Assembly: GCA_027064525.1 (NCBI GenBank)
Contig: JAMOPJ010000019.1
Location: 1-53,522, forward strand
Direction: 5' to 3'
Length of the DNA stretch: 53,522 bases
Origin: Archaeoglobaceae archaeon
GTDB lineage: Archaea > Halobacteriota > Archaeoglobi > Archaeoglobales > Archaeoglobaceae
In this document: positions 17,394-41,921 of the stretch, in pieces
Position numbering within the stretch: the first letter of the stretch is position 1
Layout of the letters: every line of letters begins with the position of its first letter
Notes under the pieces: model-generated
What the model was told of the DNA's origin: nothing
The model's input: the letters and a program-made list of their open reading frames with translations, nothing else
Database searches by the model: none
Position numbers and translations under genes: made by a program

Positions 17394-17453
17394 GGTGGTG
17401 ATGCAACACTGTTGATGACATATCTGAATCACACGCAATGTGGCGTCACGACT
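17394..17453 (+). mobile_element. MITE-like 60-bp repeat, copy 1
   Basis: The element runs from GGTGGTGATGCAACACTGTT to GGCGTCACGACT. The first 25-28 bases are identical to the other three copies; the right part is diverged but keeps the inverted-repeat end GTCACGAC. No target-site duplication is recognisable, so this may be an old copy. It lies between the convergent ATPase and zinc-ribbon genes. Confidence 0.65.
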
Positions 17454-17519
17454 CAAATAATATACACGTGTTTTTTATTGAGAGAAATTTGAGGGCTATT
17501 CCGACTGGGATTAATAAGT

Positions 17520-17774
17520 TCAGCTACCGAAGATTAGATCGAGTAGATCCGAGAGCTTATCCTTCTTTCCTTCCAAAATCTCCGCATCGTAGACTTCTGT
17601 GTATCCGCAGTTCGTGCACGAGATAAAGTAATACCTATTTCTCTGCCAATCCATCCATCTCTCAAAAAGTCCGGCACCGGTCATAGCCAACTTCTTCACC
17701 TTCGCATTCGGATTCCCGCATTTGGGGCATCTGAATCTCGCCAAAATTTCATCTTCGATCTTCATTTTTGACAT
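17520..17774 (-). CDS. Zinc-ribbon protein (YpzJ/COG3478-like)
   Basis: The 84-residue protein has two cysteine pairs, CPKCGNPNAKVKKLAMTGAG and CTNCGYTEVYDAEIL, separated by about 30 residues. This is the pattern of a small family of predicted nucleic-acid-binding zinc ribbons present in bacteria and archaea. No enzymatic motif is visible. The start may be ATG 17774 or ATG 17765. It is preceded by the flavin reductase gene 25 bases upstream on the same strand, so the two are probably cotranscribed. Confidence 0.75.
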   Translation of the reverse strand: MSKMKIEDEILARFRCPKCGNPNAKVKKLAMTGAGLFERWMDWQRNRYYFISCTNCGYTEVYDAEILEGKKDKLSDLLDLIFGS

Positions 17775-17798
17775 TCTGATAAAAATTATTTAAAAAAT

Positions 17799-18314
17799 TT
17801 ACTTTGGCTCATAATACTTCGAGTTCGTCGTGAAGAATCTCTTGCCCACATGCATCGGAACGCCACAGCCCTCAAGCCAAGTCTCTCTGAAAAATCTCTT
17901 ATCAGCCCAAGCGTGGACAATCTTGGCAACTATAAGCGAATGCTCCTTAAGCTTAAGCTCGTCCTCGATCTTGCACTCCAAGAAGGCCATCGCATTCTTT
18001 ACGTGCGGTGTTCCAATCTTCATCCCATCATCGAGCTCGATACCCAACTCGGCGATCTTGTCCACTTCTCTCCCGCTCATCGTTCCAGCTTTCCAAATGA
18101 TTTCGAGCTTCTCTATGGGTAAAACGTTAAGTGTAAATTCCTTAGATTTCGAAAGAAGTTCGTAGCTGTAGTTCTCTCTATCTATTGCTATTGCAATCGT
18201 GTCGTATTCGACGGGCATATGCCAAGCTAAGGTCATAACGTTCGTCCTATCTCCATACTTCGTGACGAGCAGAAACGCCACCTTTGGGTGGAGAATTCGA
18301 TACGCGAACTTCAT
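17799..18314 (-). CDS. Flavin reductase/ferric reductase-like FMN-binding protein
   Basis: The 171-residue protein has the split-barrel FMN-binding fold of flavin reductases: TNVMTLAWHMPV early, EFTLNVLPIEKLE in the middle, and HVGKRFFTTN near the end. Length and sequence character are close to the ferric reductase characterised from Archaeoglobus fulgidus, which reduces Fe(III) chelates with NAD(P)H. Whether it acts on iron, free flavin or a monooxygenase partner cannot be told. It is divergent from the UPF0200/0201 gene, only about 50 bases away. Confidence 0.82.
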   Translation of the reverse strand: MKFAYRILHPKVAFLLVTKYGDRTNVMTLAWHMPVEYDTIAIAIDRENYSYELLSKSKEFTLNVLPIEKLEIIWKAGTMSGREVDKIAELGIELDDGMKIGTPHVKNAMAFLECKIEDELKLKEHSLIVAKIVHAWADKRFFRETWLEGCGVPMHVGKRFFTTNSKYYEPK

Positions 18315-18365
18315 GGTATGAAGTCGATGCTAAGTAACAAATACCCTTCTGAAGACCTCCTTCAT

Positions 18366-19328
18366 ATGAGAGTCATAGCTTTCGTCGGACTACCGCTGAG
18401 TGGAAAGAGCACGGCTGCAAAGGTTGCAGAGGAGATGGGAATTCCAGTCGTTTGCATGGGTGATGTGGTGAGGGAAGAAGCTAAGAGGAGAGGTCTTCCT
18501 CAGACGGACGAGAACTTAGGCAAAATAGCTGAAGAGCTAAGAAAGAAGGAGGGGATGGATGCGATAGCTAAGAGATGCATTCCAATAATCAGAGAGAAGG
18601 GAATGGAAACCGGAGTGGTCGTCGTCGATGGCATAAGAGGAATCGCGGAAGTGGAGAGGTTTAAGAAGGAGTTTGGAGACGACTTCATCCTGATAAACAT
18701 CGAAGCTCCTCTTGAGATAAGATTCCAAAGGGCTTTGAAGAGAAAGAGAAGCGATGACATAACGAGCATCGAGGAGCTGAAGAGGAGGGATGAGAGAGAA
18801 CTGTCTTGGAACATGGGCGAAGCTATGAAAATAGCCAACTTCACGATAGAAAATGTCGGAGGACTTGAGGAGTTCAGGGAGAAGGTTAGAGGTATCTTAG
18901 AGCAGTTGGCGAAAAACGTGGAGATTGAAATAGAGACGGATGTCCATCCAACGGAAGATGTCGATAAGGTTGTTCAGGCTGTAAAGAATCTGTTTCCGGA
19001 TGCGGAGATCGAAATTGAAGATGGAAAGCTCAAGGCTAGGGCTTGGGATCTTAAGAAGTTCAGAGATCTCCTCAGAAGACAGAGAATATTGGATACTGCA
19101 AGAACCGAGCTCTTTAAAGGGAGAAGTGGAAACGAGATAACGATACTGCTTAACAAGCAGACCGCATACGTGTCGAAGATCAACTTTGCGGATGAGGATG
19201 CCATCCTTTCGCCGATAAGAGTAACGTTCAAGCTCTACGGGATTCCGGTGGGGAAGTTTATAGACTACTTGGCCCCTCCGACAAAAGCTGGAAAGCCGAT
19301 AAAGGAGGTCGATACTCTCTGGGGCTAA
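18366..19328 (+). CDS. Fused UPF0200/UPF0201 protein (NMP-kinase-like plus RNA-binding-like domain)
   Basis: The 320-residue protein combines two domains. Residues 1-180 are a P-loop kinase-like module: Walker A FVGLPLSGKST, VVCMGDVVREEAKRRG, and an arginine-rich lid RFQRALKRKRSDD, similar to dephospho-CoA and adenylate kinases. Residues from about 185 onward are a UPF0201 domain (EIETDVHPTEDVDKVVQAVK). The fusion is known from Archaeoglobus; other archaea have the two parts separately. The biochemical role is not established. ATG 18366 gives the normal MRVIAFVG opening; the upstream in-frame start at 18288 would run into the divergent gene. The 3' end overlaps the DUF1922 gene by four bases. 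Confidence 0.85.
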   Translation: MRVIAFVGLPLSGKSTAAKVAEEMGIPVVCMGDVVREEAKRRGLPQTDENLGKIAEELRKKEGMDAIAKRCIPIIREKGMETGVVVVDGIRGIAEVERFKKEFGDDFILINIEAPLEIRFQRALKRKRSDDITSIEELKRRDERELSWNMGEAMKIANFTIENVGGLEEFREKVRGILEQLAKNVEIEIETDVHPTEDVDKVVQAVKNLFPDAEIEIEDGKLKARAWDLKKFRDLLRRQRILDTARTELFKGRSGNEITILLNKQTAYVSKINFADEDAILSPIRVTFKLYGIPVGKFIDYLAPPTKAGKPIKEVDTLWG

Positions 19329-19525
19329 CCCAAGCTTTTGAAATTCGTCCCAGCACCTTGCAACCTCCTCACGATCTCCCCAGCAGTCTTCTCGTCTTCG
19401 GCCTTAGCAACGATTATGACTTTTCTCAAATCGTTTTTGAACCCGCACACGCACATCCTCGACTTAGCATTTCTCTTAGCATAGAGGAATCTTCCGCACC
19501 TTCTACATCTGAAAACCACGAACAT
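19325..19525 (-). CDS. DUF1922 zinc-ribbon protein
   Basis: The 66-residue protein begins MFVVFRCRRCGRFLYAKRNA and has a second pair in MCVCGFKN, the rubredoxin-like zinc ribbon of the archaeal DUF1922 family. The rest (EDEKTAGEIVRRLQG) is a short helix. ATG 19525 is chosen because the family starts with MF(V/I)VF; the frame extends further upstream into the MFS gene. Function unknown. It lies directly downstream of the MFS transporter gene on the same strand. Confidence 0.75.
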   Translation of the reverse strand: MFVVFRCRRCGRFLYAKRNAKSRMCVCGFKNDLRKVIIVAKAEDEKTAGEIVRRLQGAGTNFKSLG

Positions 19526-19560
19526 ATGTTGATGTAGTCTGAAGGTATTTAAAAATGGGT

Positions 19561-20691
19561 TCAATAGTCTGTCATCCAATTCAAGATAGCAAAGCTGAAG
19601 GCTAAGAGGGATGAAACCAAAAATACCAAATCTATCGAGTAAACGGCAATGGCTGAGGCGAATATCGGGCCGATAGTCTGGCCGATTCGAATCATCGAGC
19701 TGTATGTTGAGGTAACCACAGCTCTGTTTTCGGTCGGAGCGATAGAAACTACGAGGTTCTGCAACGCTGGTAAGACAGTTCCGTGCCCAAATCCGAATAT
19801 CAGCATAGCTAAAGAAATCACAACGATGTTCGGGGCGAATGGGATTATTATAAGAGATAGGGCGTAGCTTAAGAATCCCATTATCACTGTCCTCGTTTCA
19901 CCAAACCTCTTCACGAAGTATCCTAAGTTTGAGGCAATTACTGCAACGAACACGAACGTTAAAGCGATTATGATCCCTCTAAAGCCGGGAGTCAGCCCAA
20001 ACCTCTCCTCAAGCAGAAACGAGAGATAGATGGTTATAGCTCCGTAAGTTATTACGAAAACCGTGCATCCCGAAAGGAATCCGACGAGCACTTTCTTACT
20101 TCTAAGCAAAGCCAAGCTCTCAGCGAAGTATCTCTTCAGGGATCTGTCGTCGGATATGCTTGGATAATCTATCCCTAAAGCCATCAATCCCACTGGAATT
20201 GCGAGGGAGAACATGAGGAACGGCAATTTCCAGTTTACATCCGCCAAAACACCACCCAAAAACGGAAATCCAGCCAATCCCAAGCTTAAAATTCCGGCGT
20301 TGTAGCCCAAAACCTTGGCCCTTTCCAAACCGTCATATAGGTCTCCGATCAGCGTGACGGCTAAGGATGTCAGTGCGGAGCCACCTATTCCCTGCAAAAA
20401 CCTCAGAATCAGCATGAGCTTGTAATCTACGAAGGCACAAGCACTCCCAGCGATTCCGAATAAGAGTAGGCAGGGAACGACCACTTTTTTTCTCCCGATT
20501 CTGTCTGCAAGAACTCCGATTAGCGGTGCCAAAAATGTTCCCGGTAGTGTAAAGGCCGTTACGAGCATGGCTACCTCGAAGTCGGAGATGCCCAAACCTC
20601 GCTTTATCTCTGGGAAAGCTGGCGAGAGTATCGATACTCCTATGATTCCTATCAACGTTATTCCGAATATGGCTATCAGGTTCCTGTCCAT
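19561..20691 (-). CDS. Major facilitator superfamily transporter
   Basis: The 376-residue protein has 10-12 membrane helices and the MFS loop motif GVLADRIGRKKVVVPCLLLF between helices 2 and 3, plus RFLQGIGGSALTSLAVTLIGD, the helix-4/5 pattern of drug-efflux type transporters. The substrate is unknown. It overlaps the end of the upstream UPF0182 gene by 16 bases, so the two and probably the DUF1922 gene form one transcript. Confidence 0.9.
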   Translation of the reverse strand: MDRNLIAIFGITLIGIIGVSILSPAFPEIKRGLGISDFEVAMLVTAFTLPGTFLAPLIGVLADRIGRKKVVVPCLLLFGIAGSACAFVDYKLMLILRFLQGIGGSALTSLAVTLIGDLYDGLERAKVLGYNAGILSLGLAGFPFLGGVLADVNWKLPFLMFSLAIPVGLMALGIDYPSISDDRSLKRYFAESLALLRSKKVLVGFLSGCTVFVITYGAITIYLSFLLEERFGLTPGFRGIIIALTFVFVAVIASNLGYFVKRFGETRTVIMGFLSYALSLIIIPFAPNIVVISLAMLIFGFGHGTVLPALQNLVVSIAPTENRAVVTSTYSSMIRIGQTIGPIFASAIAVYSIDLVFLVSSLLAFSFAILNWMTDY

Positions 20692-23318
20692 CCTTTCACG
20701 CTCTCGTTCAGCTGTCTCAAAAGCTCACCGAGCCTTTCGAGCATCTTGCCGAATTCACTCCAGTTTCCGGATTTAACGCTTTTCATAGCCCTATCGTAGG
20801 TTTCGATGCATTCCTTGACCAGTTCTTCAAATGATCTTCCAGCCTTGACCTCCTCTTCTGCTGGTTTAAATTCGGCACCAAACAGAGCCTTCAAAGCTTC
20901 ATCGAGCGTCGGTTTCATGACGAGGAGATCATTGTATGCCACTATAACACCCCTGAGCTCTGGGATATGAGCTTCCTCAGCCTTCAGATAGACCGGCTCG
21001 ACGTATAGGATCGAACCCTCGATCGGAATGACCAAAAGGTTGCCCCTTATGACCCTAGATCCCATCTGACCCCAGAGGGTGAAGAGCTTCGAGATTTCTG
21101 GATTCTGGTCTATCCTCGCCTCTATCTGCATTGGACCGTATATCAGCTTACCCTTCGGAAATTCGTAGAGTAAGATTTCGCCGTAGTGCATTCCATCGCA
21201 TCTCGCGCACATCCAAGCTATCATGTTCTCCCTCCCCTTCGGAGTGAACGGCAACATTAGAACGAACTCGGGCTTTCCGTTCAAGCTCAAAATCACGTAG
21301 TAGGGCTCCATCTTTATTCGAACACCTTCGAACAGTTCATCTGGAATATCCCAGACATCCTCTCTGTTATAGAACGTCTCAACGCTTTCCATATGATAAA
21401 CGGAATAAACTTCCGCCTGAATCTCGAACAGATTGATGGGATACCTTATGTGCCTTTGTTTGGCTTCATCGATATCCTTCTTAAAGATCGGGAAAGCCTT
21501 GGCGATCGTCTCTATCACTGGCTCCTCTTGAACTATGTAGAAATCTACCGTTCCGTTGTATGCGTCTACGAACACCTTAACGGGATTCCTGATGTAGTTT
21601 ATCTTTCCGAACTTCGTCGTATAGACTGCTGAATAGGGAAAGTCGTTCAGAGTGGTGTATGCGTCGATTATCCAGTAGAGCCTTCCGTTTATAACAGCTA
21701 TATACGGATCGTCGTCGAACGTGAAGAATGGAGCTATGATGCGAACCCTCTCAACGATGTTCCTATGCATGAGGATTCTACTCTCCGAAGTTAGGTATCT
21801 GCTCAGTATAATGTTCACATCGCCGAACCTCATCGAAAAGAGCAGTTTCTTGAGATAGGAATCGAGTCTGACTCCGGCAGTTCCATTGTAAGTCGTGAAG
21901 ACATTCCTATCGCCCAACGGATAGTCGAATTCCTTCTGCTTAGTGTTGACGATGACGTAATCGTTGGTGACCTCTCCAAAGTATATTCGAGGTTGTGTGA
22001 CTTCTATCTGACCCTTCGGCGGAATATCTCTTATTATGAGCTCCGGAAGGCCTTCCTTCGAAACCGCGTTGACCGGAGATACTACAACTCCGTATCCGTG
22101 GGTGTATATGAGGTGGACGTTCACCCACGTTTTTGCTATGGTCGGGAGCAAATCTGTCGAGAGCTCTCTCGCGGATATCATGACTTGGGTGTATCTGCCC
22201 TCTATCGTGTATCTGTCCACATCGACATCGTGGATCACGTAATATGGACGAATCTGCTGTATCTGCCTGTAAACCTCTTTTAGCGGGCGATGATCCCAGA
22301 GCCTTACGTTTTCTATCGTTCCCCTGTTCCTCTCTATTTCATCAAGCGTCAGATTTTCCGAAACTTCGTATCTCTGCTTCTTAACTTCTGTGAGCCCGAA
22401 CGCGAACCTCGTGTAGTTTATGCTATACCCTATGAAATTCCACTCCATCTGAAGCTCGTTCGGCTCGACCTTGAACTTCTGGATCGCAAAGGGAACGAAT
22501 CCTAAGGAGAAGATCGCGATGATGCCGAAGATCACGAAAACCAAGGCCAAGTTCTCGAAGCTCTTCCTTCCGAAGTGCAGTGAAATTCCGGCAAATACTA
22601 TCGACAGGATTGAAATGAAAAGCATCAGAGGCATTAAAACGTTCACTTCCACCCAACTCGCTCCAGAAACGACTCCGTGCTGAGAAGTCAGCAGATCGAA
22701 TCTCGCTACGTAGATGTAAGCTGAGAGAAGGATGAATGTTATAGCAGATAGAACTGCGATATGGGTATAGCCGGCTTGAGGAAACAGCTCCTTGAATTCC
22801 TCGAAGCTCTTCACCCATCTAAATACGTAGGCATAGTAGAAGATTGCAATTGCGAAGCTGAGGGATATAGTCGCTGCTATTACTAAGAGGATCAGCTTTA
22901 TGAAAGGAAGCCTAAAAACGTAGAGTGAGATGTCGTTTCCAAATATGGGATCTTTCAGATTGAATTCGACTCCGTTCAGAAAGAAGACAAGTCGCATCCA
23001 GTAGTTCGAAAATGAATACGCCAATACTAGCGAGAAGATCAGATCTATCGAGTGGTAATACTTAACGGGTTCACCTAAAAACTCCTTTATCGCCCTCTTG
23101 ATCATGAACGAGTTTAAAGTGAGAATGACAAAAGTTAATACGAATACAAGCGCAAAGAGCTCCAACCTATAGCTGAGCATCGCCAAAAATAATTTTCCGT
23201 AGCCAAGGGAGTCGAACCATAGGTATTCGGTGTAGAGAACTGCGACAACGTAGGTTAAGATTATATCGGCAATTAGAAATAAAATTAGTGCGACGGTCTT
23301 TCTTGGAAATCCGTTCAT
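20676..23318 (-). CDS. UPF0182 family membrane protein
   Basis: The 880-residue protein has about seven membrane helices within the first 300 residues and a large extracytoplasmic remainder. Segments such as YTRFAFGLTEVKKQRYE, NVRLWDHRPLKEVYRQIQQI and FTYTHGYGV-type LIYTHGYGVVVSPVNAV are hallmarks of the UPF0182 family (PF03699). The short C-terminal tail (RSFEELVKECIETYDRAMKS) is a helical segment also seen in family members. The function is unknown. It lies in an apparent operon with the MFS gene. Confidence 0.9.
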   Translation of the reverse strand: MNGFPRKTVALILFLIADIILTYVVAVLYTEYLWFDSLGYGKLFLAMLSYRLELFALVFVLTFVILTLNSFMIKRAIKEFLGEPVKYYHSIDLIFSLVLAYSFSNYWMRLVFFLNGVEFNLKDPIFGNDISLYVFRLPFIKLILLVIAATISLSFAIAIFYYAYVFRWVKSFEEFKELFPQAGYTHIAVLSAITFILLSAYIYVARFDLLTSQHGVVSGASWVEVNVLMPLMLFISILSIVFAGISLHFGRKSFENLALVFVIFGIIAIFSLGFVPFAIQKFKVEPNELQMEWNFIGYSINYTRFAFGLTEVKKQRYEVSENLTLDEIERNRGTIENVRLWDHRPLKEVYRQIQQIRPYYVIHDVDVDRYTIEGRYTQVMISARELSTDLLPTIAKTWVNVHLIYTHGYGVVVSPVNAVSKEGLPELIIRDIPPKGQIEVTQPRIYFGEVTNDYVIVNTKQKEFDYPLGDRNVFTTYNGTAGVRLDSYLKKLLFSMRFGDVNIILSRYLTSESRILMHRNIVERVRIIAPFFTFDDDPYIAVINGRLYWIIDAYTTLNDFPYSAVYTTKFGKINYIRNPVKVFVDAYNGTVDFYIVQEEPVIETIAKAFPIFKKDIDEAKQRHIRYPINLFEIQAEVYSVYHMESVETFYNREDVWDIPDELFEGVRIKMEPYYVILSLNGKPEFVLMLPFTPKGRENMIAWMCARCDGMHYGEILLYEFPKGKLIYGPMQIEARIDQNPEISKLFTLWGQMGSRVIRGNLLVIPIEGSILYVEPVYLKAEEAHIPELRGVIVAYNDLLVMKPTLDEALKALFGAEFKPAEEEVKAGRSFEELVKECIETYDRAMKSVKSGNWSEFGKMLERLGELLRQLNESVKGWTGT

Positions 23319-25823: not shown

Positions 25824-25919
25824 AGAAGGCATTTAAATTAAGCACAATTGCAGTACCACTACCGAATTCTCTAAACGTTGTGAAAGATTTAAATACCAAT
25901 GTTATATCATAACCAATTT

Positions 25920-25980
25920 GGTGGTGATGCAACACTGTTGATGAGATATTTTAAGCTATGCACAATACGGCGTCACGGCC
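25920..25980 (+). mobile_element. MITE-like 61-bp repeat, copy 2, with 8-bp target duplication
   Basis: The element begins GGTGGTGATGCAACACTGTT and ends ACGGCGTCACGGCC, whose reverse complement (GGCCGTGACGCC) resembles the left end. It is flanked by exact 8-base direct repeats ACCAATTT at 25912-25919 and 25981-25988, as produced by transposition. It lies between convergent aroC and trpB2. Confidence 0.75.
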
Positions 25981-26018
25981 ACCAATTTATTTATTAATCA
26001 AAAAATTTAATATAAAAA

Positions 26019-28607: not shown

Positions 28608-29315
28608 TCACAGCTCTATTTCGTTACCTCTAAACACGGCTCCATCAACACAAACCCTCAAGCCGTTTTCGAGAACGCATGAGCCACACAGTCCGATTCC
28701 ACATCTCATGTAGTTTTCAAGCAAAAACTCAGCTCTGTCGAGAACGCCTTCAGCCTTAAAAAGCCTGAACAATCCTCTAAGCATCGGCTTAGGTCCACAA
28801 CAGTATATCCTCTCAAATCTTGACAGATCGATGTTTTTTGCTTTGATAAGCTCCACGACGTTTCCCTTAAATCCTTCGGATCCATCATCGGTTGCTAACA
28901 TCACATTAGACAGCTCATCCTTCCAGATCAACTCCTCAGATGTTCTGGCTCCGAAGACGACCAAAACGTCCGCACCCCTCTCAATTAGAAAATCGTGCAA
29001 GAACTTCAGTGGGGCGATTCCAATCCCACCGGCAACTATCAACGCCTTCTTCGAAGGTGTGAAAGGTTTGCCGAATGGCCCTCTCAATCCCAATAACTCT
29101 CCGCCCTTAAATTTGACGAGAGCCCCTGTCGTTTCACCCACCGCCTTAACCGTAACGGAATTAGGAGAGGAGAGGCTTAAAGGTATCTCCTCATAGCCGA
29201 AAACATTCACCATCAGGAACTGCCCCGGATACGAAGGGATCTCACGATCGAAGGTTATCGTTGCTATACTTTCGGTGTGGTTGGTTACTCTCTCAACTCT
29301 GACGCAAAACATCAT
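28608..29315 (-). CDS. pyrK: Dihydroorotate dehydrogenase electron-transfer subunit
   Basis: The 235-residue flavoprotein has the ferredoxin-reductase FAD pattern (IPLSLSSPNS), a nucleotide-binding ALIVAGGIGIAPLKFLHDFL, and the C-terminal 2Fe-2S cluster motif with four cysteines, CGIGLCGSCVLENGLRVC. In pyrimidine synthesis it passes electrons from PyrD to NAD or another acceptor. No pyrD is adjacent in this window. ATG 29315 and ATG 29312 are both possible. It is divergent from reverse gyrase, with a 50-base shared gap. Confidence 0.9.
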   Translation of the reverse strand: MMFCVRVERVTNHTESIATITFDREIPSYPGQFLMVNVFGYEEIPLSLSSPNSVTVKAVGETTGALVKFKGGELLGLRGPFGKPFTPSKKALIVAGGIGIAPLKFLHDFLIERGADVLVVFGARTSEELIWKDELSNVMLATDDGSEGFKGNVVELIKAKNIDLSRFERIYCCGPKPMLRGLFRLFKAEGVLDRAEFLLENYMRCGIGLCGSCVLENGLRVCVDGAVFRGNEIEL

Positions 29316-29364
29316 TTCTGCTCAGCCCAAAAGATTTTTAACTTTTTATTGGCTCATTCCCATT

Positions 29365-32300
29365 ATGATTCAAGCCATTTACGCTAACCTCTGTCAGGTT
29401 TGTGGTGAAGATTTTACAGTTGAGGAGGCGCTAAAAGGAATCTGCAAGAAGAAGAACTTTAGAATGTGCAGATATAAGTTCGATAAGATCGTTGAGGAAT
29501 TCTTCGAATTCTTCAGAAAGATAATTGGAGAACCCCGTTCTATTCAACGTTTCTGGGCCAAGAGGATTTTGAGAGGTGAGAGCTTTGCAGCTGTAGCTCC
29601 TACTGGAATAGGTAAAACTTCATTCGGTTCGGCTGTAGCTCTTTTCCTCGCTTTGAGAAAGAAGAAGAGCTACATAATCTTGCCTACGACCCTTCTGGTT
29701 AAACAGGTTGCTGAAGATCTCGCAAGGTTCTGCGAGAAGTACGGGGTTAATGCCGGACTTAATGATGAAGATGGAGATGTGGGAATCCTCTACTACCACG
29801 GCGGACTTAAGAAGGATGAGAAGGATAGATTTTTCGAGCTCTTGGAGAGGAGGAAGTTCGACATCCTCGTCACAACCGCTCAATTCTTATCGAAGCACTT
29901 CGCAAACCTCAAGGGTTTCACGTTCGACTTCATATTTGTAGATGATGTCGATTCGGTTTTGAAGGCTTCAAAGAACGTCGATAGGATTCTTCAGCTTTTA
30001 GGCTTCTACTACGATGCTAAGGAGAGGAAGTGGAAGGGGAAGGCCAAAGGCTGTCTGATGGTTTCAACGGCGACGGCGAAGAAGGGACAGAAGGTTCAGC
30101 TGTTCAGAGAACTGCTCAACTTCGATGTGGGAACTTCTACGCACGCTGTGAGAAACATAGAGGATGTTGCGATAAATAGTGAGGACATCGATCTGCTCTG
30201 CGAGATAATGAAAAAGATGGGAACGGGAGGGATCATATACGCCAGAACGACTGAGGAGGCAGAGAAGCTCTACGATATGCTGAAGGAGAGGGGCTTTAAG
30301 ATCGGGATAGTTACAGCCGGAAAGAAGAAGGACTACGAGCTGTTCGAAAAGGGTGAAGTTGATCACCTCGTCGGAACTGCCTACTACTACGGAACGCTCG
30401 TGAGGGGCTTGGATTTGCCCGAAAGGATAAGATTTGCAGTTTTCTTCGGTGCTCCGGTTTTCAGGGTTAGGGTGGAGGACATAGACACCGCGAGCGTTGG
30501 CATAATAAGAACCCTTGCTTTGATCTTCAGAACGCATGAAGATGTCAAGAGGTTCATCCCCTACCTGTCGGTGCTCGACAAGCGGGAGGATATGCTGAAC
30601 GAGCTCAGGGGAATTCTCAAGCGATTGCTCGAAAAAGGGGAGATTGAAGAGAGGGACATAGTCGTTCGGAAGGGGGAGATAATATTTCCGGACGTCAGAA
30701 CCTACATTCAAGGATCAGGCAGAACTTCGAGACTCTTCGCTGGAGGAATCACTAAGGGTGCATCCTTCCTATTCGAGGCGGATGAGGAGATTCTGAAGGC
30801 TTTTATTCAGAGGGCGAGCTACTACGACATCGAATTCAAAAATTTGGAGGATGTGGACTTCGAAAAGCTCATTAAGGAGATAAATGAGACGAGGGAGCGA
30901 TTTAGGAGGAAGGCAGAGTTCGACGCGATAAAGCCGACCCTTTTCATAGTTGAAAGCCCGACCAAAGCCAAGCAGATCTCCCGATTCTTTGGACAACCGA
31001 GCATAAAGGTTTTCACAAATAAAGATGGCGAAGTTGAGCTCGTGGCTTATGAAGTTCCAACGGCTGAGCATGTTTTGCTCGTTACCGCATGCATCGGACA
31101 CGTAACGGATCTAATCACGAATCAGGGATTTCACGGAGTTATCGTCAACGGCAGATTCATACCTATATACGCATCGATAAAGCGTTGCAGAGATTGCGGT
31201 TATCAGTGGACTGAAGAAAGAGAGGAATGCCCAAAGTGCGGGAGCAAGAACGTCGACGATTCGAAGAGGAGGATTAACGCGTTGAGAAGGCTTGCACACG
31301 ATGCGGAGAGGATAATAATCGGAACAGATCCGGATTCAGAAGGAGAGAAGATTGCTTGGGATCTGAGGAACTTGTTGGCTGGATGTGGAGAAGTCAAGAG
31401 AGCTGAGTTTCATGAGGTTACGAGGAGAGCTGTGAGTGAAGCCCTTAAGAATCTGAGGGATATAGACGAGAATCTCGTCAAGGCTCAGATCGTTAGGAGG
31501 ATTGAAGATCGTTGGATTGGCTTTGTGTTAAGTCAGAAGCTCTGGAGTGTTTTTGGTGATCGCAACCTCTCAGCCGGAAGAGCGCAGACGCCGGTTTTGG
31601 GCTGGGTGATTCAGAGGTTCGAGGAGTTCAAGCAGAAGAAGAAGATAGCAATCGTTAGAGACATAGATCTCGTTCTTGAAGTCGATGATAATGCTAAGAC
31701 CGGAAAGACGAAGCTTAAGCTTGAGATAGAGCTTTTGAAGGAGAAAGAAGAGGAAAAAACACCTCTTCCACCCTATACAACGGATACGATGCTCAGAGAT
31801 GCTAACGCGATACTGAAAATTCCAGCTAAGGATGCGATGAAATTGGCGCAAGACCTATTCGAATCCGGGCTGTGCCTAACACCCGGTTCGCTCGTTATGA
31901 TGGGGGACGGTAGCATAAAGAGGATCGAAGAGATCGCAGAGGGGGAGAAGGTACTCGGTCTGAACGACTTACACGAAAAGAAGGCGGAGGTCTTGAAGTT
32001 CTGGAGGATACCATACAGGGGTAAGCTGAGGAGAATTGTGCTCGACAACAACTACACGATTGAAGCATCACCCGACCACGGTCTTTTCGTCTACAGGGAT
32101 GGTAAGTTCGGATGGGTTTCCGCTAAAAATATTAAGAGTGGCGATTACGTTGCGGTCTCGTTCGACACCAAGGTCGAGAGGAGGAAGGTAAATTTACTCG
32201 AACTCTTGGCAATGCTCGGGATTACCGACGTCTGCGTGAAGTTCAAGGAAGGCTCGGAGGTGTTCGAGAGGCTCAGAAATAGAATCATGAAGCTGAGTAC

Positions 32301-34083
32301 GAGCACCAGATACAAATACATTAAGAACAGAACGGTTCCCCTCAGGTATCTCGTTGAATGGGGTGTGGATCTGAAGGAAATTGCGAAGGAAGTCGAGGAG
32401 ATATACAAACAGAGGGCATCCGCAAAGAAGATGCGAATGTTCGAGCTGAGCGAGGACTTCTGGTATTTTGTGGGATTAGTGATGGGTGATGGGTCCGTCA
32501 GAGAAGGAAAGGTGGCGATAGCCCAGAAGGACGTTGAAAGGATCGAGGCCATAGTCAGGGAGATATTCCCATTCCTGCACTGCTGGACTTCTCGAGCTCA
32601 GGTTTGGATCGCGAATTCAATCATAGCTGAAATTCTGAAGAGGTTGGACGTTAGAGGCAGGCTAAACGGGATGGTGTTCTCCCTGCCCGAAGAATGGATA
32701 AACGCCATGATCGCGGGATACATCGATACGGACGGTTGCGTATCTTTAATGTTCGATAAGAAGACTGGCAAGCACAACCTCAGAATAATGATTACATCTA
32801 AGGACAAGGAGAAGCTCGAAAAGATAGGGTTCTATATGTACTCTATCGGAATACAGAACTCGCTTCATGAAGATAAGAGAACAGGGGTGTGGTCGCTCAT
32901 AATTAGTAACAGATCGCTTGAAAGGTTCAGATCCAAGATCGCTAAGTACCTCAGGATCAAAAGAGAGTCGTTTGAAAGGGCTTACGAAACGTACATTAGG
33001 GAACATAAGCAGTTCGAATCTGATCTCGTCCCGTTTGGAGATCTCTTCAGAATGCTTAAGTTCGATTATGGAGTTAGGAATAGAATACTTAAGGAGCTTG
33101 GAATAGATACGTGGAACTGGAACGATTGTAAGTGCATTCCGAGAGAGAAGCTCAAGAAGGTGTTGGAATTCGCAGAAGATTCGGAGATCAAGTATTTCCT
33201 GATGGAACTTCTGAATTCCAACATCACTTGGATTAAGGTGAAGGAGACGGAGGAGGTGTATTATGAAGGTTACATTTACGATGTCACAACTACGACTTCG
33301 AACTTCTTTGCAAACACGGTACTCAATCACAACTGTACATACCATCGAACCGACTCCACTCGTGTCAGCGATGTGGGATTGAGAATAGCTAAGGAGTTTT
33401 TAGGTGATGAATTCGTTCCGAGGGAGTGGTTCATGGAAGGAGCCCACGAGTGTATAAGACCGACAAGACCGATTCCAAAGGAGACTCTGCAGAGGCTGAT
33501 TCAGGAGGGAGTGATTCAGGTGGAGGGTATCACTTGGAGGCATCTGGCTTTATACGACCTCATATTCAGACGTTTCATGGCGAGCCAGTGTAAGCCTTAC
33601 CGCGTCAAGATCGCAAGGTATCTGATCCGATACGATGGAAAAGAGGTCGAAGAGGAGAGAGTTCTGAATGCAGAAGGAAAAGCTGTAGAGCTCTACAGGT
33701 GGAGCGTTTGGGTTAAGAAAGAGTTGCCGGTGGGCAAGATTACAGTGGAGGCTGAGATAAGAACCGTTCCAAAGGCTCCTCTGTTCACACAATCGGACAT
33801 AGTCCAGTTGATGAAAGAAAGAGGGATTGGCCGACCTTCCACATACGCTACAATAGTTGACAGGCTTTTCATGAGGAACTACGTCATAGAGAAGAACGGC
33901 AGAGTGATTCCGACGAAAAGGGGAATAGAGGTTTACAGATACTTGGCAAGCAACTACGGAAGTTTTGTTTCGGAAGAGAGGACGAGGCTTTTGGAGGAGA
34001 AGATGGACGCGATCGAGAGAGGTGAGCTCGATTATTACAAAGCCTTGCAAGAGCTATATGAGGAGATAAGACAGATCGCCTGA
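29365..34083 (+). CDS. rgy: Reverse gyrase, intein-containing
   Basis: The precursor has 1572 residues: 1085 of reverse gyrase and a 487-residue intein. In order: N-terminal zinc finger (CQVCGEDF), SF2 helicase with Walker A PTGIGKTS near residue 80 and DEAD-like FVDDVDSV, latch region, then from about residue 528 the topoisomerase IA domain (FIVESPTKAKQI, a second zinc finger CRDCGYQW...CPKCG, GTDPDSEGEKIAWDL) and the active-site segment TYHRTDSTRVS directly after the intein. It introduces positive supercoils using ATP and is the marker of hyperthermophiles. ATG 29365 gives the conserved MIxAIY opening; an A/T-rich box about 25-35 bases upstream suggests a near-leaderless transcript. Confidence 0.96.
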   Translation: MIQAIYANLCQVCGEDFTVEEALKGICKKKNFRMCRYKFDKIVEEFFEFFRKIIGEPRSIQRFWAKRILRGESFAAVAPTGIGKTSFGSAVALFLALRKKKSYIILPTTLLVKQVAEDLARFCEKYGVNAGLNDEDGDVGILYYHGGLKKDEKDRFFELLERRKFDILVTTAQFLSKHFANLKGFTFDFIFVDDVDSVLKASKNVDRILQLLGFYYDAKERKWKGKAKGCLMVSTATAKKGQKVQLFRELLNFDVGTSTHAVRNIEDVAINSEDIDLLCEIMKKMGTGGIIYARTTEEAEKLYDMLKERGFKIGIVTAGKKKDYELFEKGEVDHLVGTAYYYGTLVRGLDLPERIRFAVFFGAPVFRVRVEDIDTASVGIIRTLALIFRTHEDVKRFIPYLSVLDKREDMLNELRGILKRLLEKGEIEERDIVVRKGEIIFPDVRTYIQGSGRTSRLFAGGITKGASFLFEADEEILKAFIQRASYYDIEFKNLEDVDFEKLIKEINETRERFRRKAEFDAIKPTLFIVESPTKAKQISRFFGQPSIKVFTNKDGEVELVAYEVPTAEHVLLVTACIGHVTDLITNQGFHGVIVNGRFIPIYASIKRCRDCGYQWTEEREECPKCGSKNVDDSKRRINALRRLAHDAERIIIGTDPDSEGEKIAWDLRNLLAGCGEVKRAEFHEVTRRAVSEALKNLRDIDENLVKAQIVRRIEDRWIGFVLSQKLWSVFGDRNLSAGRAQTPVLGWVIQRFEEFKQKKKIAIVRDIDLVLEVDDNAKTGKTKLKLEIELLKEKEEEKTPLPPYTTDTMLRDANAILKIPAKDAMKLAQDLFESGLCLTPGSLVMMGDGSIKRIEEIAEGEKVLGLNDLHEKKAEVLKFWRIPYRGKLRRIVLDNNYTIEASPDHGLFVYRDGKFGWVSAKNIKSGDYVAVSFDTKVERRKVNLLELLAMLGITDVCVKFKEGSEVFERLRNRIMKLSTSTRYKYIKNRTVPLRYLVEWGVDLKEIAKEVEEIYKQRASAKKMRMFELSEDFWYFVGLVMGDGSVREGKVAIAQKDVERIEAIVREIFPFLHCWTSRAQVWIANSIIAEILKRLDVRGRLNGMVFSLPEEWINAMIAGYIDTDGCVSLMFDKKTGKHNLRIMITSKDKEKLEKIGFYMYSIGIQNSLHEDKRTGVWSLIISNRSLERFRSKIAKYLRIKRESFERAYETYIREHKQFESDLVPFGDLFRMLKFDYGVRNRILKELGIDTWNWNDCKCIPREKLKKVLEFAEDSEIKYFLMELLNSNITWIKVKETEEVYYEGYIYDVTTTTSNFFANTVLNHNCTYHRTDSTRVSDVGLRIAKEFLGDEFVPREWFMEGAHECIRPTRPIPKETLQRLIQEGVIQVEGITWRHLALYDLIFRRFMASQCKPYRVKIARYLIRYDGKEVEEERVLNAEGKAVELYRWSVWVKKELPVGKITVEAEIRTVPKAPLFTQSDIVQLMKERGIGRPSTYATIVDRLFMRNYVIEKNGRVIPTKRGIEVYRYLASNYGSFVSEERTRLLEEKMDAIERGELDYYKALQELYEEIRQIA
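31873..33333 (+). other. Intein with LAGLIDADG homing endonuclease in reverse gyrase
   Basis: The insert starts with Cys (CLTPGSLVMMGDGSIKRIEE) and ends ...VLNHN, followed by Cys of the extein, the required residues for protein splicing (N-terminal Cys, penultimate His, terminal Asn, +1 Cys). A block-B-like ASPDHGL follows. The middle carries two LAGLIDADG-type motifs, VGLVMGDGSV and IAGYIDTDGCV, each with the catalytic aspartate in GDG/TDG, so the endonuclease appears intact. It sits at GL/CTYHRTDS, two residues before the catalytic tyrosine, the insertion point used by the reverse gyrase intein of methanococci as far as I recall. Confidence 0.93.
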
Positions 34084-36561: not shown

Positions 36562-36622
36562 GGTTGTGACGCCGTATTGTGCATAGTTTAAAATATCTCA
36601 TCAACAGTGTTGCATCACCACC
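36562..36622 (-). mobile_element. MITE-like 61-bp repeat, copy 3
   Basis: On the minus strand the element is almost identical over its full length to copy 2 (about three differences), from GGTGGTGATGCAACACTGTT to GGCGTCACAACC. The 8-base flanks CACTACTA and CAATAGCA agree at five positions, possibly a decayed target duplication. It lies between convergent DUF523 and antitoxin-like genes. Confidence 0.7.
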
Positions 36623-36719: not shown

Positions 36720-36914
36720 TCACCTTTTTAAAAATTCGAATAGATCTTCTGCATCCTCACCCTCTCCTGAAGGTCTGAAGTATGAATACAGCTTCAAATC
36801 GTCGATAACCTTTACATCCTCAATGCTCAAAGTTACCTTAGTCCTTTCTGGAATGTTCAACTTCTCCAACGGAATTAAAACACCCTTTCCATAGATGCAT
36901 TCTATTTTCTTCAT
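36720..36914 (-). CDS. DUF104 (AF2212-like) antitoxin, orphan
   Basis: The 64-residue protein starts MKKIECIYGKGVLIPLEKL and continues NIPERTKVTLSIED, the beta-hairpin pattern of the DUF104 antitoxin family first noted in Archaeoglobus. Such antitoxins normally precede a PIN-domain VapC gene. No toxin gene follows here within 290 bases, so it is an orphan. ATG 36914 matches the family start; ATG 36938 and 36920 are in frame. Confidence 0.7.
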   Translation of the reverse strand: MKKIECIYGKGVLIPLEKLNIPERTKVTLSIEDVKVIDDLKLYSYFRPSGEGEDAEDLFEFLKR

Positions 36915-37055
36915 CTTCATGTATATTTTAATCTTCATGATGTTAAGGAAGTTGCTAAAAACGGCTTTAACATCCTATCATTTAGACAAGGGTCAGCAAT
37001 TGGAATCGAAAAATTGGGACAATTGTAGAAGTTATAATATGGGTTAAGTCCCGAC

Positions 37056-37304
37056 ATGGGTAGAAAAGTGAGGGTGACACTTTCTATTAGACCAGAGTTA
37101 AAACAGTTGGCCGAGAAGTTTGAGATAAATCTAAGTGCCTTGTTAGAGGATGCATTAATTCAAAGACTCAGAGACTTAATTTTAATCAAACAAGGAAAAG
37201 AAGTTATGCTCCGGCCGGGATTTGAACCCGGGTCACGGGATCGAGAGTCCCGTATGATTGGCCGGGCTACACCACCGGAGCTCAAATTAATGAAATTCAT
37301 TTGA
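37056..37304 (+). CDS. CcdA/CopG-like antitoxin fragment running into tRNA-Glu antisense
   Basis: The first 49 residues (GRKVRVTLSIRPELKQLAEK, INLSALLEDALIQRLRDLI) form a ribbon-helix-helix pattern like CcdA/CopG antitoxins. After KQGKE the frame has no stop and reads the complement of the tRNA-Glu gene (LRPGFEPGSRDRESRMIGRA), ending 23 bases beyond it. The tail is therefore not a protein domain; the gene probably lost its own end when joined to the tRNA. No toxin partner is adjacent. Confidence 0.5.
   Translation: MGRKVRVTLSIRPELKQLAEKFEINLSALLEDALIQRLRDLILIKQGKEVMLRPGFEPGSRDRESRMIGRATPPELKLMKFI
37207..37281 (-). tRNA. tRNA-Glu (CTC)
   Basis: On the minus strand the acceptor arms GCTCCGG/CCGGAGC pair, the anticodon arm CGGGA-CTCTCGA-TCCCG shows anticodon CTC and the T arm is CCGGG-TTCAAAT-CCCGG, discriminator A. 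A TATA-like ATTTTTAAAAACTC lies about 20-35 bases upstream (37302-37316). An antitoxin-like frame overlaps it on the other strand. Confidence 0.95.
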
Positions 37305-37387
37305 GTTTTTAAAAATTTTGGTGGTAACGAGTTGCTATCAATTAACACGGAGTAACCTTTAGATATTCTCCCGTTCGAGACGATACC

Positions 37388-38128
37388 ATGAAAATCGGCA
37401 AATTCGGCTTTCTCAATAACTTCTTACCTTACTACTGGATAGAAAAGTTTGGGAAAGCCAAAATCGTCGAAGCCCCTCCTAAAATACTTGCAAACATGAT
37501 TGAGCAAAGAAAAATCGATTATGCTCCCGTTCCTTCGTTCTACTTCCTCAAAAATAAAGACAAGCTTAGGAACTACGACTTCTGTATAGCTTCGAAGGGG
37601 AGAGTTCTCAGCGTTCTCGTGGTTTCGAACGGCAAGTCCTTGGATGACAAAATCGCGATTACGAACGAGACGATGACATCCGTAAACCTGCTTAGAATTA
37701 TTCTAAAAGAGAAAGGATTAAACTGCAAGCTCGTTCCGGTCAACGACAGTAAAGCATCCTCATTGCTTAAACACTGTGGCAGTGCACTTGTTATAGGAGA
37801 TGAAGCCATTAAGGCGAGAATGATCTATAATGTGATCATGGATTTAGGAGAAGAATGGTTTGAGCTTACCGGCTATCCGATGGTTTTCGGAATTTCGGCA
37901 TCGCTGAAAGATGTAGATGCTGAGGGTTGTGACAATCTCATTGGCAAATCGATCGACTGGGGATTCGAGAACTTCGATGAAGTCGTTAGCGAGGCTGAAA
38001 GGACGTTTAGGATGCCAAGAGAGTTTTTGGAGAAATACTTCAGATCTCTGAGCTACAAGATGGGATCGAAAGAGAGAAAGGGGTTAAAGGTGTTCGAAGA
38101 ACTCTGCAGAGAGCACGGCCTGCTCTAA
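37388..38128 (+). CDS. mqnA: Chorismate dehydratase (futalosine menaquinone pathway)
   Basis: The 246-residue protein has the periplasmic-binding-like fold of MqnA/MqnD enzymes: GKFGFLNNFLPYYWIE at the start, VEAPPKILANMIEQRKIDYA, and later HCGSALVIGDEAIKAR. MqnA removes water from chorismate to form 3-enolpyruvyl-benzoate, the first step of the futalosine route to menaquinone, the quinone of Archaeoglobales. It has no signal peptide, which argues against a transport protein. Its end overlaps trpS (convergent) by four bases. Confidence 0.83.
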   Translation: MKIGKFGFLNNFLPYYWIEKFGKAKIVEAPPKILANMIEQRKIDYAPVPSFYFLKNKDKLRNYDFCIASKGRVLSVLVVSNGKSLDDKIAITNETMTSVNLLRIILKEKGLNCKLVPVNDSKASSLLKHCGSALVIGDEAIKARMIYNVIMDLGEEWFELTGYPMVFGISASLKDVDAEGCDNLIGKSIDWGFENFDEVVSEAERTFRMPREFLEKYFRSLSYKMGSKERKGLKVFEELCREHGLL

Positions 38129-39390
38129 CCTATTATCGTGTATGCGTCGAGTTCGATCGATTCGACCTTCTCCTGAAGATCTTTCAAAAAGCATTTGACG
38201 AGTTCGCTCGCCCTCTTCTTGCACTGCCCACACAACAGTTTCCCTTCCTTGCAATCTCTTCTAATCTCCTCAAGTTCCTTATCGTCTTCTATGAGGTGGA
38301 ACGTGAATAGCTCGAAGACCGTGCATTTTTCAGGTTCCCCGCCAAGTCTCCTCTGCTCCTCTGCACTCACCCTCCCTCCGGTCAGAGCCTTCATGACCTT
38401 CTTCGCCCCGACTTCCGGCTCATCGAACAGTGAGATGTAGCTTTCAGGCTTGCTCGAACTCATCTTTCCTCCGGTAAGCCCGGTTATGAACATGTGATAG
38501 GTTGAGGAAGGTGGAATGAAAGCGAAACCTCCCAAGTCCAATTCGATCTTCCTTACCTCTTCTTCTATCTTTGCTGGGTCTCCAAAGAAGTCGATGTGCT
38601 CCTCGTAAACCTTACACTCGAACCCCAAATCCCTGAGCTTCTCCAGAAATTCCCTTCCTTTTCTGCTCCTAACTCTGACTCCGCCTTCAATCCTTTCGAA
38701 CGAGAATATGCTTATCCTCGACGCCAAATCCCTCGTGAGTCTTAGGTGGGGATCCTGATCGGCTCCAACTGGAACGACGACAGGTTTCGGCCCTCCAAAT
38801 TCCTTGAGCTGGGGGTGGAGGATATCTGCCGCTTGAATGGATGTCACGAACATCCTCGCCAAAGTCGTCTCTGGGTTGAATCCGTATATAGCCTTGAGCT
38901 CACTCCAATTCACCTCAGCAGAGAGCTCGAACGCCAAATCCTTAACGAGTCTACTCGCGGACTGGAAGTATAGGATGGCGTTTTCAGGCTCCAAGCCTAA
39001 GGCTGCGATGCACTTCAGATAGAGCATTCCGATCTCTCTCGTCTTCTCCCAACTTAGTCCTCTCACGGCATGGGCCTCCATGTCCGCAATCGCAACGAAA
39101 GCTTTCCCACCCATCTGCTGATGCCATACGATCTCGTCCATCGTCATCTTATGACCGAAGTGAGGTAATCCGGAGGGCATGAATCCCGACATCACAGCCC
39201 AAGGTTTCTTGTTGAGCATGGCATCGACTATCCGCTCGTAGTCTCTATGTCCAAAGATCACACCCCTCCTCATCAGCTTGTTTGGATTTGGAACCTTATC
39301 GAGGATTTCGGAGAAAGGCTGGATTCCAAACTCCCTCATGAGCCGATCGTAGTCAACAACGCCTTCAACTTCCCAAGGGGTGACCCTCAT
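38125..39390 (-). CDS. trpS: Tryptophan-tRNA ligase
   Basis: The 421-residue class I synthetase starts MRVTPWEVEGVVDYDRLMRE, the typical archaeal/eukaryotic-type N-terminus, then has the HIGH-like SGLPHFGHKMTMDEI and the KMSSS motif in LTGGKMSSSKPES. The longer frame to 39483 adds a non-conserved stretch, so ATG 39390 is taken. It is divergent from the ABC binding-protein gene. Confidence 0.95.
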   Translation of the reverse strand: MRVTPWEVEGVVDYDRLMREFGIQPFSEILDKVPNPNKLMRRGVIFGHRDYERIVDAMLNKKPWAVMSGFMPSGLPHFGHKMTMDEIVWHQQMGGKAFVAIADMEAHAVRGLSWEKTREIGMLYLKCIAALGLEPENAILYFQSASRLVKDLAFELSAEVNWSELKAIYGFNPETTLARMFVTSIQAADILHPQLKEFGGPKPVVVPVGADQDPHLRLTRDLASRISIFSFERIEGGVRVRSRKGREFLEKLRDLGFECKVYEEHIDFFGDPAKIEEEVRKIELDLGGFAFIPPSSTYHMFITGLTGGKMSSSKPESYISLFDEPEVGAKKVMKALTGGRVSAEEQRRLGGEPEKCTVFELFTFHLIEDDKELEEIRRDCKEGKLLCGQCKKRASELVKCFLKDLQEKVESIELDAYTIIG

Positions 39391-39461
39391 GCTGGAAAGT
39401 TCGATAGGCGGTTTATTGATTTTGTGGAAAGCATTTATAGTCCATGGACTCAGTTCCGAGC

Positions 39462-40388
39462 ATGAAAATGCGAATTTTCGCATTGGTTCTCATAGCGTTG
39501 TTATCGTTGGGATGTGCCCAGAAATCGGAGGAGAAGATCAAGTTCGGTATCCTTCCGATTGAAGACGCTTTGCCCATTGTTGTGGCCGAAAAAGAGGGAC
39601 TATTCAAGAAGCACGGAATCGATGTTGAGATCGTCGATTTCAACAGTGCATTGGAGAGGGATTCAGCTCTGATGGCGAAGCAGATCGACGGAGTGATCAC
39701 GGATCCATTGGCGGTAATTCTTCTCAAGAGCAAGGGATATGACGTTCGAATAGTCTCACTCTGCTTAGGCAAGACTCCTCAAGAGGGAGTTTTCGCAATA
39801 CTCGCATCGCCGAATTCGAGCATAAATAGCGTTAAGGATCTGAACGGTAAGAAGATCGCGATTTCGAGCAACACGATTATCGAGTTCGTTACCGACGAGC
39901 TTCTCTCGAAATACAACGTCAGCTATGAAAAGATTGAGGTCAAGAGCATCCCGATGAGGCTTAGGATGTTGCTGGATGGAGAGGTAGAGGTAGCAACGTT
40001 GCCAGAGCCTTTGGCGAGCTACGCTGTCAGCAAGGGTGCGAAGCTGATAATAAGCGATGCGATGATCAACGAGAGCTTAACTCAGACGGTGATCGTGTTT
40101 AGAGGTGACTTCATCGAGAAGAACGGAGATGCAGTTAAGAGGTTCATGAAAGCCTACGCTGAAGCTGTGGAGCTCATAAACTCGAACCCGCAGAAGTATA
40201 GGGATCTCTTCGTTAAAATAGCAAGAGTTCCGAAGGACATAGCCGACAGCTATCCGATGCCGAAGTATCCGAAGCCGGAGAAGTTCCCGAAGGAATTCTA
40301 CGAGCGCTATCTTAACTGGGCCCTTGAGAAGGGGCTTATAGAGAAGGAGGTTCCTTACGAATCCGTGATCTATGATATCGGTGAATGA
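39462..40388 (+). CDS. NitT/TauT-type ABC substrate-binding lipoprotein
   Basis: The 308-residue protein has an intact lipoprotein signal peptide (MKMRIFALVLIALLSLGCAQ, lipobox LSLGC) and the NMT1/SsuA-like fold: FGILPIEDALPIVVAEKEGL, DGVITDPLAVILLKSKGYD, EVATLPEPLASYAVSKGA. Family substrates include sulfonates, nitrate, thiamine precursors and other small molecules; the one used here is not evident. The ATPase gene starts within its last 17 bases. Confidence 0.87.
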   Translation: MKMRIFALVLIALLSLGCAQKSEEKIKFGILPIEDALPIVVAEKEGLFKKHGIDVEIVDFNSALERDSALMAKQIDGVITDPLAVILLKSKGYDVRIVSLCLGKTPQEGVFAILASPNSSINSVKDLNGKKIAISSNTIIEFVTDELLSKYNVSYEKIEVKSIPMRLRMLLDGEVEVATLPEPLASYAVSKGAKLIISDAMINESLTQTVIVFRGDFIEKNGDAVKRFMKAYAEAVELINSNPQKYRDLFVKIARVPKDIADSYPMPKYPKPEKFPKEFYERYLNWALEKGLIEKEVPYESVIYDIGE

Positions 40389-41103
40389 TGTCTCTAAAGT
40401 TTACGAGGACGGGACGGTAGCGTTGAAGAACGTAAGCTTCGAAGTCGAAAAGGGAGAGATCTGCTCGATAATCGGGCCTTCGGGCTGTGGGAAATCGACA
40501 TTACTGCTCATCATAGCCGGACTAATAAAGCCGAGCGATGGGCATGTAAAGATCGACGGGAGAGTCGTGGATAAGCCGAGGAGAGATGTGGCTTTGATTT
40601 TGCAGGACTACGGACTTTTTCCTTGGAAGACCGTTTACGATAACATAGCTTTGGGCTTGAGGATCAGGAAGATAGGCAGGGGGGAGGAGAAATGGATAGT
40701 AAATAGCTTAATCGAAAGGCTCGGACTCAGGGGGTTCGAGAAACATTATCCAAAGCAGTTGAGCGGTGGAATGAGGCAGAGAGTTGCAATAGCGAGGGCT
40801 TTGGCTATCCAGCCCAATATCCTTTTGATGGATGAGCCCTTCTCCTCCCTCGATGCTTTAACGAGGGAAAAGCTTCAGAACTTTCTGCTCGAACTTTGGA
40901 ACGAACGAAAGATGACCGTGATCCTCGTAACCCACAGCATAGAAGAGGCAGTTTTCTTGGGGCGAAAGATCGTCGTCCTAACCCCTCGCCCCGGGAGAGT
41001 GAAGACGATAATCGAGAACCCTTCGGCCGGAGACGTGAATTATAGGTGGACGGAGGAGTTCTTCGAGAGATGTCGGGAGGTTCGAAGGTCGGTTACATCA
41101 TAA
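40372..41103 (+). CDS. NitT/TauT-type ABC transporter ATP-binding protein
   Basis: The 243-residue ATPase has Walker A GPSGCGKST, Q-loop LQDYGLFPWKTVYDN, signature [15 protein letters not shown] and Walker B LLMDEPFSSLDALTR. The Q-loop sequence (FPWKTV) is characteristic of SsuB/TauB/NrtD ATPases. ATG 40372 overlaps the binding-protein gene by 17 bases and the gene overlaps the permease by about 34, showing tight operon coupling. Confidence 0.93.
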   Translation: MISVNDVSKVYEDGTVALKNVSFEVEKGEICSIIGPSGCGKSTLLLIIAGLIKPSDGHVKIDGRVVDKPRRDVALILQDYGLFPWKTVYDNIALGLRIRKIGRGEEKWIVNSLIERLGLRGFEKHYPKQLSGGMRQRVAIARALAIQPNILLMDEPFSSLDALTREKLQNFLLELWNERKMTVILVTHSIEEAVFLGRKIVVLTPRPGRVKTIIENPSAGDVNYRWTEEFFERCREVRRSVTS

Positions 41104-41801
41104 GTCTGACAATTCTGATAACAGCTTGGAAGTTTGCGTCGATTATAATATTTAATCCAGCTTTGCCTCCACCGGAGCTCGTAGCCCTTGCTATGATTAA
41201 AAATTCCAGCATTCTCTTAAAGCATACTGTCGTCAGCCTGATGAGAGTCCTCTATTCGATGGCTTTGGCGCTCTCGTTAGCTTTTCCTTTGGGGATCTTG
41301 AGTAGGGAAGGTTGGTTCGACAGAATTTTTGCTCCATTTATTTATCTCCTCTACCCAATTCCTCACATAGTCCTTCTACCTCTCTACATTCTCCTATTTG
41401 GCATCGGAGATCTGTCCAAGGTTGCTCTGATAGCGACGATCCTCTTCTTTCAGATGGTTGTGACGACGAGGGATGCGGTGAAGGCAATCAGCGAGTTCTA
41501 CGTTTACTCGATTCTATCGCTTGGAGCGAGCAAGTTCGACATCTATAGACATGTGATAGTTCCGGCCGTGATGCCGAAGATTCTCACTGCCTTGAGGATA
41601 AGCGTTGGAACGGCTATAGCCGTTCTGTTCTTCGCTGAGAGCTTCGCCACGAGAATCGGGCTAGGATATCTGATAATGGACGCTTGGAGCCGTGCGGATT
41701 ACAAAATGTTATACGCCGGGATTTCGGCGATGGCTCTCTTGGGTTTGAGCTTATACTTGATAATAGATATGGTGGAGAAAAGGGTTTGCAGGTGGCTTTA
41801 A
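41070..41801 (+). CDS. NitT/TauT-type ABC transporter permease
   Basis: The 243-residue protein has about six membrane helices, LPPPELVALAMIKNSSILLK near the start, YPIPHIVLLPLYILLFGIGD, and the EAA loop SLGASKFDIYRHVIVPAVMP. This is the SsuC/TauC permease pattern. ATG 41070 is preferred; a GTG 41046 start is possible but would add only hydrophilic residues. It is the last gene of the operon; repeat copy 4 lies 60 bases beyond its stop. Confidence 0.92.
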   Translation: MSGGSKVGYIISLTILITAWKFASIIIFNPALPPPELVALAMIKNSSILLKHTVVSLMRVLYSMALALSLAFPLGILSREGWFDRIFAPFIYLLYPIPHIVLLPLYILLFGIGDLSKVALIATILFFQMVVTTRDAVKAISEFYVYSILSLGASKFDIYRHVIVPAVMPKILTALRISVGTAIAVLFFAESFATRIGLGYLIMDAWSRADYKMLYAGISAMALLGLSLYLIIDMVEKRVCRWL

Positions 41802-41861
41802 GTTGTTGATGATGTTTTTGGCCAAAAACGTTAATTTTAAAAAATAATTAAAGCAAAGTTG

Positions 41862-41921
41862 GGTCGTGACTTCACATTGTTATGATTTAAATAATACCAT
41901 CAACAGTGTTGCATCACCACC
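41862..41921 (-). mobile_element. MITE-like 60-bp repeat, copy 4, with 8-bp target duplication
   Basis: On the plus strand the element runs GGTCGTGACTTCACATTGTT to the conserved end ...TGTTGCATCACCACC. Its two ends are imperfect inverted repeats (14 of 20 positions). Exact 8-base direct repeats CAAAGTTG flank it at 41854-41861 and 41922-41929. It lies between the convergent permease and acetyltransferase genes. Confidence 0.75.

Follow-up and report, generated by a model that had tools for sequence, protein, structure and literature searches.

The stretch of DNA analyzed here (the window) is contig JAMOPJ010000019.1 of an Archaeoglobaceae archaeon (assembly GCA_027064525.1; genome G000), 53,522 nucleotides in length, and it carries four copies of a 60- to 61-bp sequence that recurs throughout this genome. 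These copies belong to a new family of miniature inverted-repeat transposable elements (MITEs), a kind of element that is itself well known. Judged by its ends and its target duplications, this is probably an IS1-family MITE of type II, mobilized in trans by an IS1-family transposase. The element would consist of two IS1-type ends, each ∼24 bp long, placed back to back across ∼12 bp and without any gene. A multicopy IS1 element in the same genome, or its close relative, would supply the transposase, which would bind both ends and insert the unit at staggered cuts of 8 bp (sometimes 9 bp), giving rise to the direct repeats. No description of this MITE family was found in the open-licence literature (most subscription papers and ISfinder lie outside this search), which leaves the term "undescribed", used in the first-pass annotation, uncontradicted there.

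A full-length sequence model of the element matched the genome of the window 51 times at an E value of 0.01 or better, and the count remained 51 at 0.001; the 20-mer GGTGGTGATGCAACACTGTT, with up to two mismatches, occurred at 40 places. The matched length was 57–61 bp in 42 of the 51 (the remainder was shorter), and copies in related genomes mostly fell into the same range, with one copy of 65 bp in genome G002. In being short, devoid of genes, and present in many copies, the element agrees with a MITE. That 60 bp is short had been pointed out before, as "unusually" so; the length nevertheless lies within the range of 50–500 bp given for MITEs in the available part of PMC10969869, where type II denotes those having only their ends in common with an insertion sequence, a definition that the element fits. 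The terminal inverted repeats are imperfect: the left end GGTGGTGATGCAACACTGTTGATG and the reversed right end GGTCGTGACTCCACATTGTGTATG (both consensus) share, by eye, GGT.GTGA..C.ACA.TGT..ATG. Mean column identity, calculated from the 42 distinct sequences among the 51 matches, was 0.93 for the left 24 columns, 0.84 for the middle 12, and 0.86 for the right 24. The left part is thus better conserved genome-wide, as had been proposed, although less strictly than the four copies of the window imply; most loci were found via a left-end pattern, which favors conservation on this side.

Exact 8-bp duplications flanked 24 of the 51 copies, and four more had one mismatch; of the remaining 23, two (L037 and copy two of L026) carry exact 9-bp repeats. 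Randomly placed site pairs at a 60-bp distance within these loci gave exact 8-bp repeats at a rate of 0.00019. The earlier description of a MITE with 8-bp target duplications is supported. The copies considered stem from 56 matches in 46 loci, of which five below 15 bits were dropped (three being opposite-strand readings of counted copies). At 11 of the 51, the ends were shifted by 1–5 bases to reach the terminal bases; four of those are among the 24, and at locus L009 the repeat was known before the end was shifted. The duplicated targets (n = 24) had a G+C content of 27%, compared with 45% for the window as a whole, genes and intergenic DNA together.

One copy of the MITE (G000:C37:39028) lies in frame in the gene for a Cmr2/Cas10 protein of 993 residues (L193:840-3821, corresponding to G000:C37:37339-40320), within a type III CRISPR locus. 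Together with 8 bp, the 61-bp element adds 23 residues and leaves the frame intact; in the protein, HLQ appears twice where the target is duplicated. In the nearest Cmr2 homologue (56% identity, residues 344–989), a gap of exactly 23 residues coincides with the MITE site. Insertion is supported by an empty site at the protein level, for one copy and one homologue. The empty site comes from one comparison out of nine loci, among which L203, L204, and L205 aligned across this part but with other gaps, the alignments of L208 and L209 did not extend across it, and L206 gave no match (L207 and L210 complete the nine). As to an empty site for the second copy in the window, its flanking genes were located on separate contigs in three genomes of the same genus, and ∼1.7 kb apart in a fourth. 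The Cmr2 copy is the one convincing case, among 44 copies, of an element in frame within a gene. Forward frame 1 was open in 23 of 33 distinct sequences of at least 57 bp, compared with 7.7 expected from shuffles; because these sequences are related by descent, and because at most one copy lies convincingly within a gene, a coding frame through the element is not claimed.

The first-pass annotation had proposed searching the genome for an insertion sequence with ends matching those of the MITE, and the best partner found was an IS1-family element with one closely matching end. The transposase profile PF03400 matches 37 of 294 genomes of the phylum, including G001 from the same genus and G014 and G030 from the same family. 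With the IS1 element of G001 (745 bp) as DNA query, eight ends of contigs in this genome were recovered at 80–83% identity over 100–140 bp (the end of C53, both ends of C51, the end of C6, and the starts of C21, C12, C10, and C38), together with one short internal fragment. Five of the contig ends carry the left and three the right end of IS1, which implies at least five IS1 copies, the bodies of which are unassembled; an IS1-family element has broken this assembly. In two left–right pairs, the contig ends have 8 flanking bp in common (AAGGCATC and AAAAGTAG), each pair presumably bordering one IS1 copy, and the frame at the left end looks by eye like a CPHCK zinc-ribbon start, as in the G014 element. 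In G014, exact 8-bp repeats were present at four of the six IS1 copies compared (eight were found); the single IS1 element of G030 was without an 8-bp duplication. The local IS1 appears to make duplications of 8 bp, the same length as observed for the MITE.

The relationship between the two elements was assessed by comparing nine MITE ends with ten IS1 ends, each against 20,000 shuffles (p values are uncorrected for the 90 comparisons). The left end of the MITE, in three forms, agreed with the right end of the local IS1 at 19, 20, and 21 of 24 positions, and none of the 20,000 shuffles was as good. Forms of the MITE right end reached 17 of 24 with the IS1 right end of G001, and 16 of 24 with that of E. 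coli IS1A. At the level of sequence, one end of the MITE is a close match to IS1 and the other is only loosely IS1-like. The IS1 of this genome would be the mover, with the right end of the MITE working as an IS1 end.

Several observations weigh against a role of IS1. The commonest MITE right end matched the left end of the local IS1 at only 13 of 24 positions (p 0.02, uncorrected), and right-type IS1 ends fit it equally well or better (14 of 24 for the local IS1 right end). Nearly half of the copies (23 of 51) lack an 8-bp duplication, having two mismatches or more. IS1 and MITE are also not found together throughout: G014 and G030 have IS1 yet no MITE match, and G002 and G004 hold MITE copies without a clear IS1. 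Finally, a full IS1 was not seen in the window's genome, a profile search of which with PF03400 gave no match, and neither did a search of the genus with PF03811. These profile results were first counted against IS1, but would be explained by the body of the element being unassembled. Where insertion sequences break assemblies, failure to find a transposase says little about its absence.

Several transposase families make 8-bp duplications. The MITE could be moved by another such enzyme, of the IS6, IS256, IS1595, ISL3, or ISA1214 type, in which case it would resemble IS1 ends by convergence; this we consider unlikely. IS6-type transposases (PF13610), which the first-pass annotation had among its candidates, occur in 27 of 55 genomes of the family, but the window's genome contains one fragment only, at 20 bits compared with a cut-off of 27. 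A bacterial IS6 end consensus, available from part of PMC6807381, agreed with the MITE left ends at 7–11 of 14 positions over all forms (10–11 in three of the four) but at only 6–8 of 14 with the right ends, and on the left end IS1 agrees far better. End-finding on 30 PF13610 loci of the family yielded two IS6-like end pairs, which matched the MITE ends at 3–11 of 20 positions. An IS6 partner was dropped, since the fragment is below the cut-off and neither end pair fits well; of the earlier interpretation, the kind of element stood, as supported by the 8-bp duplications, and the IS6-like driver did not.

The sequence TTTAAA is the best conserved block within the element (columns 0.93–1.00; adjoining columns 0.36–0.95, most below 0.86). 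Its conservation is explained most simply by common descent; alternatively, it may act in transposition or serve as a TATA-like box. It seems rather improbable that both this block and the length of ∼60 bp are held by selection on transposition, the element representing a minimal transposon with two outward IS1-type ends at fixed spacing. If so, a bend or flexible step might let the ends pair on very short DNA, and selection would keep old and young copies equal in size across several genera. The pairing might take place on an archaeal histone tetramer, the footprint of which is ∼60 bp. TTTAAA also resembles the archaeal TATA box, and its conservation would suit a functional signal, such as an RNA or a mobile promoter, whose function accounts for its spread or retention; insertion with target duplications speaks against this, as do the lack of any Rfam family at the MITE copies (only three tRNAs of the window reach the gathering score), unremarkable folding energies (z −0.66 as DNA and −1.77 as RNA), and the placement of the copies, which together make such a signal highly improbable. 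Within 70 bp of the element, 26 gene ends were counted versus 11 gene starts facing it (41 copies, scored on mechanical open reading frames after exclusion of the three of 44 that lie inside one), and 12 copies lie between convergent genes versus 6 between divergent ones. A promoter role was rejected because gene ends outnumber starts, and a functional RNA because there was no Rfam match and the folds were unremarkable.

According to the genome collection, the named near relatives of the window's genome belong to the Archaeoglobaceae. At an E value of 0.01, matches were present in 10 of the 55 family genomes and 4 of the 13 genera, including the window's own (the family-wide search used stricter filters, with at most 99 candidates scored per genome). 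Outside the genus, several matches were weak or partial; others are clear, for instance the 60-bp copy in G029 (L073), with TAAAACAT on either flank. Scanning the named genome collection with a degenerate 23-mer taken from the left end gave five stretches, of which four are in two Archaeoglobaceae metagenome bins. The fifth, L066 (JAMOPD010000107.1, 3,172 bp), is a contig binned as Thermococcaceae that resembles a plasmid and carries genes of the ParA and PAPS-reductase types; its MITE copy is identical to the commonest form in the window's genome and has an exact 8-bp duplication. As the bin contains this one MITE match only, L066 may be a plasmid that was either transferred or assigned to the wrong bin. 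No MITE match was found in the viral contigs, plasmids, and phages searched. Identical copies occur in groups of up to five in the window's genome, which suggests recent bursts; the form GGTAGTG...GAGCCACGACC is present there five times and once on the plasmid-like contig, with exact repeats at four of the five and at the contig copy. The flanks of two insertions look alike by eye between G001 and G002 (L048/L090 and L087/L095), which suggests that some predate the split of these genomes.

Two further arrangements were noted. Some MITEs lie in close pairs with ∼50–100 bp between them, either direct (G000:C45:36840/36970) or inverted (C39:24919/25068 and C21:45891/46048). Genome G032 has four partial matches (L072, L082, L088, and L092) without a clear right end, three of them containing CAACNCTGTTGATGAAATTTTTAAATCATGC; these are perhaps decayed, or belong to a different subfamily.

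Compared with known systems, the MITE shares with the IS1 family (E. coli IS1A and the elements of G001 and G014) the end type GGTNNTG... and, with that of G014, the 8-bp duplications. It differs in length (60 bp versus 745–768 bp), in having no transposase, and in its right end, which is only loosely alike. The Sulfolobus MITEs SMN1 (320 bp) and SM3A (164 bp) are likewise archaeal, gene-less, bounded by end repeats, and moved in trans by insertion sequences, but they are longer and have ISC1733 and ISC1058 as partners (PMC3718332, in the part available; the likeness is one of description, not of sequence). MITEs of the IS6 family, of 227 and 336 bp in the accessible text of PMC7986276, also have 8-bp duplications, but are longer and carry IS6 ends, and an IS6 partner was not found in this genome. 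Rickettsia palindromic elements, as far as covered by the available part of PMC10969869, are short repeats that can be located in frame within a gene, where they contribute a peptide; they are ∼150 bp long and often located in genes, in contrast to the single convincing case described above. The Archaeoglobaceae thus gain a MITE family for which an autonomous partner is likely known; this partner was located at the contig ends of a draft genome seemingly without an IS1 transposase. The length of the MITE is near the sum of two IS1 ends, and so short a natural substrate would offer a handle on the minimum DNA required by an IS1-type transposase.

All four copies reported in the window were recovered at their positions with the 20-mer GGTGGTGATGCAACACTGTT, which occurred there exactly four times (with up to three mismatches allowed) and never in 100 shuffles. 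The exact duplications noted earlier at the second and the fourth copy were likewise confirmed.

Copies of the MITE in the window and their target duplications
Feature	Position	Strand	Remarks
MITE copy 1	17394..17453	+	60 bp; terminal base T, not C; without flanking duplication
MITE copy 2	25920..25980	+	61 bp
Target duplication ACCAATTT, left flank of copy 2	25912..25919		exact 8 bp
Target duplication ACCAATTT, right flank of copy 2	25981..25988		exact 8 bp
MITE copy 3	36562..36622	-	61 bp; flanks differ at 3 of 8 positions, hence without duplication
MITE copy 4	41862..41921	-	60 bp
Target duplication CAAAGTTG (+ strand), left of copy 4	41854..41861		exact 8 bp
Target duplication CAAAGTTG (+ strand), right of copy 4	41922..41929		exact 8 bp

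Besides the MITE, the window encodes (29275-34083, + strand) a protein of 1,602 residues with helicase, Toprim, and topoisomerase domains, interrupted at residues 874–1353 by a LAGLIDADG-containing intein. Judging by the order of its domains, we read this protein as a putative reverse gyrase.

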